A stretch of DNA of 64,000 bases, from positions 183,820,071 through 183,884,070 of the forward strand of contig NC_084462.1 in the NCBI RefSeq assembly GCF_027409185.1, given 5' to 3'. This document shows positions 1 to 36,766 of the stretch, one piece after another (within the stretch, counting starts at the first letter, position 1; the number at the start of each line of letters is the position of its first letter). The notes beneath the pieces are model-generated. The model was given only the letters and a program-made list of their open reading frames with translations. It made no database searches and had not been told where the DNA came from. Source of the stretch: Cynocephalus volans. Lineage: Eukaryota > Chordata > Mammalia > Dermoptera > Cynocephalidae. Both the position numbers and the translations under genes were made by a program.

Positions 1-234
1 CTGAGGACATTGGCACTCCTTGTTAGGGCCAGGGACAAAACGTCATTCCTAACCTGTCAGCATGGCGCATCGCGTGGCCGGTCTGGGCCTGAGCAGGAGA
101 CACGGTGGAGAAACTGAGGCAGAGGGCAGTGCCTCCCTTGCCACTGGTGGCCAATCCAGGCCCTGGCCTCTCAGCCTGCGGGTGGCATCCGACCCCGTGG
201 CGGGCTGACAGCTCTGTCTCCTCTGGCCCCACAG

Positions 235-634
235 TTTGGCAAGATGTCGGTGAAGGAGGGTGCGCAGCACAAGTGGACAGTGCTGAAAGAGAAGCTGGGG
301 CCACCAGAGCTGGACCCCACCGAGGCCAACCTGGAAAATGCCGACCCCGAGCTGTGCATCCGGCTGCTCCAGATGCCCTCCGTGGTCAACTACTCAGGGC
401 TACGCAAGCGCCTGGAGAGCAGCGATGGCAGCTGGATGGTGCAGTTCCTGGAGCAGAGCGGCCTGGACCTGCTGCTCGAGGCCCTGGCACGGCTGTCGGG
501 CCGCAGTGTGGCCCGCATCGCTGACACCCTGCTGCAGCTCACCTGCATCAGCTGCGTGCGTGCCGTCATGAACTCGCAGCAGGGCATCGAGTACATCCTC
601 AGCAACCAGGGCTACGTGCGCCAGCTCTCCCAGG
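235..634 (+). CDS. INF2: INF2 copy 1 exon 2: start codon and first part of DID
   Basis: The exon begins after a CAG acceptor with nine 5' UTR bases, then ATG at 244, and codes residues 1-130 plus one base. It carries the beginning of the armadillo-like Diaphanous inhibitory domain, the region where human glomerulosclerosis and neuropathy variants cluster. The same exon is at 19192-19591 in copy 2 and is identical there. Confidence 0.93.
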
Positions 635-3600
635 GTGAGCCTCGGGAGGGATGGCGGGCGGGCAGGTCAAGCAGGCTGGGACACCTCAGGTGCCCTATGA
701 CGGGCAGACATTGGTGACTCAGTGTAAATAAGGCTCCAGGCCATGAAAGTCAGTGGGAGACCTGGGGTTCAGGGAGAGAGAAGAGGGCTCAGCTGGACAG
801 GAAAGGAGGGCTTCCTGGAGGAGAGACTGGCTTCCTGGACTCAGGGAAAACATCACCATTCACCCTAAGTCTGAAACCGTCGGGCCACCTTGGTTCCTCC
901 AGCAGCTGCACCTTTATTCTGTGACTCTGCTGTGCATTTCCACCTGGCCCTGTGCCAGCTCCCACCCCCAGGGTTCCAGGCCCTCAACCATGCTGTGGCA
1001 GCTAGAGTCAGCTGGGTGGAAAACACAAGTCCCTTTGAGGACCTCCCACTTACACACTGCCTGGCTCCAAGACCTTTAGGTCTGGCCCGCACCTACGCAT
1101 GGCATTATCCTCCGCCTCCCAGCACCTTCCCAATGTCCCCCTTCCCTGGCCTGTCCCCCTACTTGAGCACCTGGAGGACTTCCTCCCCAGCAGGCTTCCA
1201 GCCTCTGCCTCCTGCCCAGGCTGCCTTTGCATGCCTCCAAAGCCTTGCTCATCCTTTAAGTTCCAGCTCACTGTCGCCTCTTCCAGGAAGTCTCCCAGGC
1301 TGTGCCCGGAGCCAGTCCCGACTCCTTGCCACCAGGCTGTGCTGCTCCATGGCAGCAACCCAATCAGTCCCACTTGTGCTTGGGGCTCCAGGACCAGCTG
1401 GGGGTGGACAGTGATGGGCAAGGTCAGGCCTGTGGGGGCAGGCAGGTGTCCATGTGGGTGAGGGAGCCAGAGACTAACTCGGAGGATGGAGGCAGTGCAG
1501 GGACCATTCCGATCCCAGCCTGTTTCCCCAGCCCAGCCTGTCTGTAGCCCTCTGTAGGGTCCTTTGTAAATTGTTCTCAGCAGGACCAGTCCAGAGAGGA
1601 GAGACACACCTAAAACTCTTCCAGCCCCGGGGATGGAGCAGGAGGCAGGGGTTAATGAGGACAGGGAGGTGCCGCAGGCTGTGTCTGTCATAAATGCAGT
1701 TAGTGCTGAGTTTGGAGAAAACATGGGCCCGGAGCCAGTGACAGGACTCGGCAGGCCAGCAAGGACCCCTCAGAACTAAGGGCCAGCTTCAGCAGACCCC
1801 AAGGCAGCTAGGGCTGCCCCTGCTTCTGAGCCCTTCCCTGTAGGGTCTGGCTCTGGGGTCTGGGAGGTGGGGTCAGGGCACCAGGGAGAGGGCAGCAGGG
1901 CAGGGCCCAGCCCTTCACCCAGTACCTGCTGTGGGCCATGGGCAAGTGCACGGCGCCCTCTGGCGTCTGCCTGTCAGGCCGGCATTGCCGCCCTAAGCCC
2001 AGCCGCACAGGCGCAGGAGATGGGGGGATGCAGGGACCCCTGAGATTCACCCCGCCCCTTGGCAGCTCTGGACACGTCCAGTGTGATGGTCAAGAAGCAG
2101 GTGTTTGAGCTGCTGGCCGCCCTGTGCATCTACTCGCCTGAGGGTCACACCTTGACCCTGGATGCCCTGGACCATTACAAGGTAAGCAGCGGGGCCTGGG
2201 CCTGGGTGGGCTGTGGGCTCCCACCTGGGCGCGCACTGACCCTGCCCACCCTGCAGATGGTGTGCAGACAACAGTACCGCTTCAGGGTCATCATGAACGA
2301 GCTCTCTAACAATGACAATGTGCCCTACCTGGTCACTCTGCTCAGCATGATCAACGCCGTCATCCTGGGCACCACGGACCTCCGCAAACGTACCCAGCTG
2401 CGGAGCGAGTTCATCGGTAACCACCCACCAGCCCAGCCCGCCCTGCATCTACCTGGGAGGTGGAATCACGACAAAACCTGCCCCTACCACGCACCGCCCC
2501 CTCCCCTCCAGGGCCCCAGAGGAAGGACTGTCTTGGGGACTTGAGCCCCCTGCCCCTGCCTGCCCCTTTGGTGGATGCAGGCCTCAGAGCACCTAGACCA
2601 TGTCCCTGGAGGGTTCTCAGTTACAAGGCTGGCTGGGCACTGGAGGGAGGCAGGCGGCCTGATGCCCAATCCAGCTCTGCCCTTCTGGCAGTGACCCTTC
2701 AACAAGCACCACTGTGTGTCCAGAGATGTCTCCCTTCCGGAGCCCCTGTCCCTAGTGTCCCATAGGAACAGCAGGGTTCCCCTCTGGCCCAGGAGCCAGG
2801 TGCTCTGGTGGTGGAACTAAGACAAGGGATCGGGGAGGCAGAGGAATTAGATGCAACACACAGGTGACCCCAGGGCAGGTGTGGGGGGTGGATGGCCAGA
2901 GGCAGCCTCTGAACCCTTCTGATCCCATCTGTCCCTTCCCAGGGCTGCAGCTTCTGGATGTTCTGACCCGGCTGCGGTGAGTCCCCACTGTGACTGGTCC
3001 TGCCAGCTACCCCTTCGCTGCTGCCCAAAGCCAGGCCCTTGCCCAGGCAGTGCCTCCAGATAGACAGGGAGGTGGCTTCCAGGAGTACCACACTGGACCC
3101 ACCCCAAGGCCAAGCCTCAGATTCACTGTCCGTGGAAGCTGCCCATAGAAACTAGGGTCTTCCTTAGGTACGATACACGGCTCCTAGTTCATTCAGGTTT
3201 CAGATACACAACAGATAATGTTTTAGTGTAAGTATATCCCAAATATTGTATGGAATGTACTTATGCTAAGAATTATTCACCATTTATCTAAAATTCCAAT
3301 TTAATTGGTACCCTGTCGTTTTGTTTGCTAAATCTGGCCACCCTGCTGGGAACAGCTGAGAAACCCTATCCCAGGCCTCTGTTAGGACCACACTTGGTGG
3401 GGTCTCCAGCGCCAGGGAAATCAGCTTGGAGGAGCCCAGAGCTGGGATGACTGGTGTTGAACTGACATTGGGCAAAGGGGTACGTGTGCCCAGCCCATGC
3501 CAGGCGTTGAGGGGGCCGGCCCTGCCTGCTGAGGGCTCTTGTTCATTGGCCAGGCTGAGGTGAATGGCAAGTCCTGGGCCCAATGTACACTCAAGCGTCT

Positions 3601-35636: not shown

Positions 35637-36218
35637 GAGACCTCAGGCCCGCCTTGGCACAGCAGCGGCTGCTAGACGTGCTGCTGAGCGAGATTCTTCT
35701 GGCTGTGAGTCCCAGCCTGGGACTGGGTTCTGGGAAACCAAAACTCCATGCCTTACCCAGCTAGGGTCCTTCTGGAGCCTTCTTGGGGCCTTCCAGCCGG
35801 GACCATGACAGGCACCTGTGCCCAGCCTGGCCTGGCGCCCTCCTGGACCGCCTGCACACGCCCAGCCTCTCATGATCTGCTTTCTAACGCGACGCCTGAC
35901 GCACACCCACATGCACTATGACACCCCTGGCATGCAGGGGGCGGGGCAGGTGGCCGTGTCCTGGGTCAGAGCCTCTACGTGTGTACACCCTGCATCTCCC
36001 CAGTCCGCAGCGCTGCCTTGCATCAGCTCAGCCTGTTTTTAGTTGAAATGCAATGCTTTTTGAGTCTTTGCTGTTCTGAGGTGGCCGAGTCAGGGACAGG
36101 TGGGTGGGTGGAGGCAGCCCATCCCCTCCCCATGGAGGCTGGCCCCCATCCCAGTATGTCCAGCCCCCACTCCCCAGCTGTGAGCTGCTGAGGCTGGAGT
36201 CTGGCGGGGCCTTTGACC

Positions 36219-36224
36219 AATAAA
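36219..36224 (+). terminator. Poly(A) signal of INF2 copy 2
   Basis: The same AATAAA and downstream GT-rich element as in copy 1, with no base changes. Confidence 0.85.
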
Positions 36225-36766
36225 GAGCAAACCTGGCCCAGTCTGTGACTGTTGTGTTCAGCGGCTGTGGGGGTGGGAGGAGGGGCGTGGGCTTGTCGTG
36301 TACACACGGTGGGGGCTGGACCCCCCATCACTGCAGCTGAGTTGATGTGGGTGGGTGGGTGGATAGGAGGGGTGGGGGCAGGTGAGTAGGGAGCGATGGT
36401 CTGCCCCTCTGTGAGAATTGGAACGGGCGGAGGGGCTCGTGAGGGAAGGCCCCGACTTTGAGGTGGATGGTCCGAGAGAAGGGCCTGTGCCGCAGCCGCA
36501 CCCCTGCCCGGCCGGCCTCTCTCCTCGGCCTGCACCCTCCCCACAGCATCCGCCTCGCCCCCACCTGGCGGTGTCTCCCCACCAGACAGACGGTGGGCCC
36601 AGAGGACAAGGATCGGCGTCTCACTCCACGTTCCATCCCCAAGGCTGGGTGGGTGGGCACTGTGGTTGCTAAACGAATATTCATTACATTGAATTTCAAA
36701 ACCTTAAGCGGGCATCTGGGCTTTGGCTTTTTTGTTATTGTGACTCCCATGACAGTGCAGCCAGAA

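Follow-up and report, generated by a model that had tools for sequence, protein, structure and literature searches.

A 19-kb tandem repeat of the INF2 gene body in the assembled genome of the colugo Cynocephalus volans

INF2 (inverted formin 2) is an actin-regulating formin, mutations in which cause kidney and nerve disease in humans. The closest described counterparts of the locus analysed here are the CAAX isoform of INF2, the recent intrachromosomal tandem segmental duplications and copy-number variants of mammals, and the false heterotype duplications of genome assemblies (Ko et al. 2022, PMC9516828). In the latter article, false duplications make up 2.3, 0.5 and 0.3% of the sequence in three VGP species (Table 1), heterozygosity ranges from 0.22 to 0.95% across the three species, false pairs are mostly separated by gaps and at times joined by unsupported sequence, and a true allele-specific tandem duplication within one contig showed haploid depth.

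The colugo copies resemble the INF2 CAAX isoform in their Drf_GBD, Drf_FH3, FH2 and WH2 domains, their C-terminal CVIQ and their neighbours ADSS1, SIVA1 and AKT1, and differ from it in that the gene body occurs twice, the second time without exon 1. As a 19-kb direct repeat with 99.86% identity and sharp, non-homologous breakpoints sharing one base, the locus matches recent mammalian tandem segmental duplications, with no difference in kind. It is like the false heterotype duplications described by Ko et al. (2022, PMC9516828) in that the pair is allele-like in divergence and lies side by side on one scaffold of a haplotype-unresolved assembly, and unlike them in having no gap between the copies. 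Searching the open-licence literature, we found no report of a mammalian INF2 tandem duplication (judged by title and abstract start) and nothing relevant on colugo segmental duplication (judged by listing). The locus is most likely a recent tandem duplication of the INF2 gene body, its second copy lacking a recognisable promoter; it is ordinary and known in kind, and was not found in print in these searches. If real, it offers a fresh gene-body duplication before decay, with clean breakpoints, useful for following the fate of a promoterless formin copy; if false, it warns that a tandem copy with allele-like divergence and no gap beside it can pass for gene gain in a long-read assembly.

Structure and junction of the repeat

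The window (the whole stretch of C. volans DNA that was analysed, 64,000 nucleotides) lies at C3:183820071-183884070. Comparison of the window with itself revealed a direct repeat of positions 1-17785 against 18958-36766 with 23 substitutions and two gaps. The window edge cuts copy 1, and the whole unit was compared with upstream DNA from the same contig included. The left end of the unit was found at -1172, i.e. 1,173 bases ahead of window base 1, and the right end at 17784/17785, giving lengths of 18,957 bp for copy 1 and 18,981 bp for copy 2, which directly adjoins copy 1. The full-length copies are separated by 27 substitutions, one 23-bp repeat unit and a single G in a homopolymer (99.86% identity of aligned bases, 0.14% divergence). 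A previous sequence-only reading had described a head-to-tail duplication of nearly the whole INF2 gene with 23 substitutions, a 23-bp unit gain and a 1-bp indel. The analysis bore out the identity of the gene, the order and the near-identity of the copies, and the count inside the window was exactly the same. That reading was nonetheless only partly supported, as it lacked the true left end, the nature of the junction and the absence of the inferred exon 1 and promoter in copy 2. The features of the unit are as follows:

1..17784, + strand: copy 1 of the tandem unit, true start at -1172 (G000:C3:183818898), from self-alignment including upstream DNA
17785..36766, + strand: copy 2 of the tandem unit, a 5'-truncated INF2 without the inferred exon 1 and CpG-island promoter, from self-alignment and CpG scan
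17784..17787, no strand: duplication junction, where the INF2 3' flank meets sequence of intron 1, with one shared A, no N and no homology at the breakpoints
7747..15079, + strand: 7.3 kb of copy 1 that differ from copy 2 at one site (longest run without a difference 4,784 bp)
21158..21211, + strand: 23-bp minisatellite in the short third intron, 2.3 units in copy 2 and one fewer in copy 1 (site 2207)
37241..39136, + strand: TCAC-type tandem array of 1.9 kb (~84% matches), not duplicated, ~475 bp past the right breakpoint

With adjacent copies in the same orientation, at least 1 kb long and at least 90% identical, the repeat has the properties of a tandem segmental duplication. A 601-bp junction probe was searched against the 2.81-Gb genome (130 contigs, only the best candidates being scored) and matched at three places among these best candidates, all at this locus, the first 516 bp of the unit being found twice and the last ~86 bp twice. 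A one-strand comparison of 324 kb, looking for pairs with a minimum of 400 bp and 95% identity, detected nothing else comparable. The lone local repeat of 0.7-0.8 kb besides the INF2 pair was a direct one of 0.78 kb and ~96% identity, with copies ~1.9 kb apart, at -112366 to -109693 in window coordinates.

The sequence reads CGCCCCC/ACCCAGCC at the left edge, GCCAGAA/CCCAGCC at the junction and GCCAGAA/GCCGATG at the right edge (slashes mark the breaks), with one base, an A, common to the breakpoints at the junction. When the 1 kb flanking the left breakpoint on either side was compared with the 1 kb before and the 475 bp after the right one, all matches were weak (the best spanning 44 bp with 73% identity, E 0.009) and no match lay at both breakpoints; none of the 37 junction-spanning words (3 12-mers, 7 16-mers, 11 20-mers and 16 25-mers) recurs in 324 kb. 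The homologous repeats at both breakpoints that characterise NAHR are thus missing, and NAHR between SINEs or other repeats was ruled out on this ground. The 6-bp motif CAGCCA occurs near each breakpoint, yet is not the join.

Because the junction is free of N, shares one base and has no homology, end-joining or a replication-template switch fits better than repeat recombination or a gapped joining of haplotypes. By such a route, a break in INF2 intron 1 would have been joined to a break ~0.5 kb past the INF2 poly(A) signal. Speculatively, the TCAC array beyond the right breakpoint could have promoted breakage or hampered assembly. Seven runs of N (61-294 bp) were seen in the 240 kb upstream, from -194812 to -37375 in window coordinates; they say nothing on assembly gaps.

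The substitutions comprise 22 transitions and 5 transversions, with 11 of the 27 at CpG (raw counts). This transition excess and CpG share make the differences look like mutations rather than read errors, and a duplicate born of sequencing error was discarded on these counts. They are unevenly spread, with 20 in -1172..7746, one in 7747..15079 and six in 15080..17784, so that a single difference in 7.3 kb contrasts with ~0.22% on both flanking sides (post hoc p 0.0006 for the longest stretch holding no more than one difference and 0.012 for the longest one holding none; KS p 0.03). The leftmost difference is 468 bp from the start of the unit, the rightmost ~30 bp from its end. The near-identical middle suggests gene conversion between the copies, or a duplication that joined two different alleles. 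It also makes 0.14% a poor clock, and we set aside the age of ~240-710 kyr obtained at an assumed 1-3e-9 per site per year. No 4,785-mer is common to both copies, and long accurate reads (>4.8 kb) can therefore separate them.

Gene content and promoter of the two copies

We searched the window by tblastn with a human INF2 protein, which matched both copies exon by exon, and built an exon model for each copy. Both contain 21 coding exons with AG/GT at every splice site and a 1,231-codon frame ending in CVIQ; the open frames and intact splice sites of the sequence-only reading are thereby upheld, and its two full coding sets are confirmed as 21 exons, numbered 2-22 by the model instead of 2-23. 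Exon 2 begins at 235, nine bases 5' of the ATG. A Pfam scan, run on the copy 1 protein only, found Drf_GBD, Drf_FH3, FH2 and WH2, the N-terminal Drf_GBD/FH3 part, FH2 and WH2-like motif of an INF2 formin, and the copy 2 protein is three residues off the scanned one. Since introns are kept in both copies, a retrocopy was ruled out. The following features were annotated:

235..13561, + strand: INF2 coding exons 2-22 of copy 1, ATG at 244 and stop at 13561 after CVIQ (tblastn, exon model, Pfam)
19192..32542, + strand: INF2 coding exons 2-22 of copy 2, 1,231 aa, with T404I, H433Y and N507S relative to copy 1 (exon model)
5118..5816, + strand: FH1 (proline-rich) exon of copy 1, with three amino-acid differences at 5343, 5429 and 5652 (alignment, exon model)
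24098..24796, + strand: FH1 exon of copy 2 (exon model)
17238..17243, + strand: AATAAA of copy 1, ~540 bp before the junction
42614..63678, + strand: ADSS1, the next gene (tblastn)

Besides these three replacements in the FH1 exon, the coding sequences differ at two silent sites in the exon that follows, five differences in all. Protein queries (tblastn) gave the gene order INF2-ADSS1-SIVA1-AKT1, which we take to be the usual mammalian one, human included; similarity to human INF2 and orthologous position agree.

Promoters of CpG type were sought in 494 windows of 500 bp over 124 kb (GC >0.55, observed/expected >0.65). None of the 150 windows wholly inside the duplicated stretch passed this test, which assesses CpG-type promoters only. 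A strong CpG island (GC 0.75-0.82) lies outside the unit at -12.2 to -11.5 kb, and weaker windows passed at -16.0 kb, within a repeat array, and at -3.7 to -3.0 kb, both also outside the unit. The strong island contains a GTAAGT donor-like site that we infer to be the end of a non-coding INF2 exon 1, given the human layout.

Copy 2 has a start codon and lacks the strong CpG island and the inferred exon 1. As these would lie 12 kb upstream, outside the unit, copy 2 is 5'-truncated, and the duplication comprises the gene body and 3' end, not a self-sufficient gene with promoter and first exon in both copies, as judged from CpG islands. Of the "nearly whole gene" previously claimed, the gene body and 3' end hold, in a unit slightly longer than proposed, and the inferred exon 1 and CpG-island promoter do not.

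Copy 1, with promoter and exon 1, should yield normal INF2. Copy 2 retains all coding exons with no recognisable promoter and should be silent barring read-through or a new promoter. Were transcription to read past the poly(A) signal of copy 1, splicing of exon 1 to exon 2 of copy 2, 31 kb onward, would give a normal protein, and splicing from the penultimate exon of copy 1 to exon 2 of copy 2 would be out of frame. The predicted product of the latter has ~1,213 INF2 residues without the CAAX end, followed by an unrelated tail and a stop after residue 1,309.

Duplication, assembly artefact and the standing of copy 2

The sequence itself documents the structure, the breakpoints, the reading frames and the pattern of differences; the reality of the duplication, the way it was joined, the position of the promoter, the expression state and conversion are matters of interpretation. 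On the sequence evidence, the repeat is probably a real and recent tandem segmental duplication of 19 kb carried by one or both haplotypes of the sequenced colugo, and it is possibly polymorphic. The causes listed in the sequence-only reading (a young, polymorphic or homogenised duplication, or an assembly artefact) all still deserve weighing. Assemblers join sequences through overlaps or N gaps; a join with neither would imply that one read or more carried it. If the duplication were real on one haplotype only, depth would be intermediate, not normal, by arithmetic. Against a real duplication, the 0.14% divergence is of allelic order, and clustering of differences is also expected of two recombining alleles. 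A literature search, judged by listing, yielded no heterozygosity value for C. volans itself.

These same two properties fit an artefact in which two INF2 alleles were placed in series (a false heterotype duplication), with a chimeric read or gap filling closing the space between them, an explanation that we hold to be rather unlikely. It has to contend with a join that shows neither gap nor overlap homology. Two alleles this similar, moreover, normally assemble as a bubble rather than in series, and the gap expected between the members of a false pair is absent, the window containing no N. In its favour, false duplications remain even in VGP assemblies, and false pairs are "sometimes connected" with no assembly gap in between, owing to wrong gap filling or other errors (PMC9516828). 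Another article terms the C. volans assembly GCA_027409185.1 haplotype-unresolved and reports problems in its IGH locus, which is near INF2 (PMC12090573).

A real, fixed and older duplication that ongoing gene conversion keeps homogenised, making it look younger than it is, would account for one difference in 7.3 kb against ~0.22% on both sides. We judge it very improbable: divergence reaches only 0.22% even in the less similar zones, with introns and flanks counted, and long-term conversion would be expected to leave older differences near the ends, the outermost ones lying at 468 bp (left) and ~30 bp (right).

A functional pair, in which copy 2 is expressed and its three FH1 changes alter actin assembly, would be a special case of either real reading rather than an exclusive alternative; it is highly doubtful, since the intact frame and splice sites of copy 2 and the position of all three non-synonymous changes in the FH1 exon are set against the 0/150 CpG windows (CpG-type promoters only), a duplication too young for an intact frame to indicate selection, and a ratio of 3 non-synonymous to 2 synonymous changes, too few to interpret. 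That Philippine colugos have a true second INF2, segregating or fixed, whose promoterless copy is expressed by read-through or from a captured promoter to give two INF2 proteins differing in the FH1 region, would be a long shot.

Interspersed repeats and the IGH neighbourhood

We compared the surrounding sequence with a panel of 13 family sequences, namely MIR and 12 lineage SINEs (primate, carnivore, cetacean, pig, horse, rodent B1 and B2, bat, rabbit, camelid, bovine and Afrotherian). None of the 12 lineage SINEs of this panel matched at E 1e-4 in 324 kb, ancient MIR being the sole match, both at that threshold and at E 1e-6 in 124 kb. One 24-bp match to the camelid-type SINE (E 0.029, cut-off E 0.05) was taken as chance. 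ARAGORN and Rfam each returned no hits on the window.

A de novo repeat search identified a colugo-like SINE in 7 full or partial copies, including the query; it consists of two halves, both similar to a tRNA-Ile (73 and 71%). A tRNA-derived "t-SINE" family of dermopterans was reportedly described by Piskurek and colleagues in 2003, and we assume this family to be of tRNA-Ile origin. No article on a colugo or Dermoptera SINE of tRNA-Ile or CYN type was found in the open-licence literature.

The IGH locus lies 0.75 Mb from the INF2 repeat on the same scaffold. According to the CloseRead article, the primary IGH locus of C. volans (GCA_027409185.1, VGP) spans ~2.3 Mb on SUPER_3 at 20-40x coverage, and its primary sequence shows bases with poor support, soft-clipped reads and a jump in coverage, trouble traced mainly to missing alternate sequence, the authors retaining the primary (PMC12090573). 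We located a cluster of C1-set immunoglobulin domains at C3:184.63-184.87 Mb, 2.3-2.5 Mb from the contig end at 187.14 Mb. Within it, at G000:C3:184672347-184790372, four C1-set triplets of similar layout start at 184.672, 184.702, 184.736 and 184.789 Mb; they are probably four IgG-like constant genes, the name being a guess.

Elsewhere in the genome, nine C1-set domains at G000:C2:207079586-207109297 show alternating spacing of ~4.15 and 3.21 kb (7.4 kb per pair); they probably form the near-identical units of a lambda light-chain constant array, again a guessed name. Five globin exon matches fall within 26 kb at G000:C11:95183226-95209000, as two equal-scoring pairs and one further match, and probably represent a multi-copy alpha-globin cluster, a name likewise guessed.
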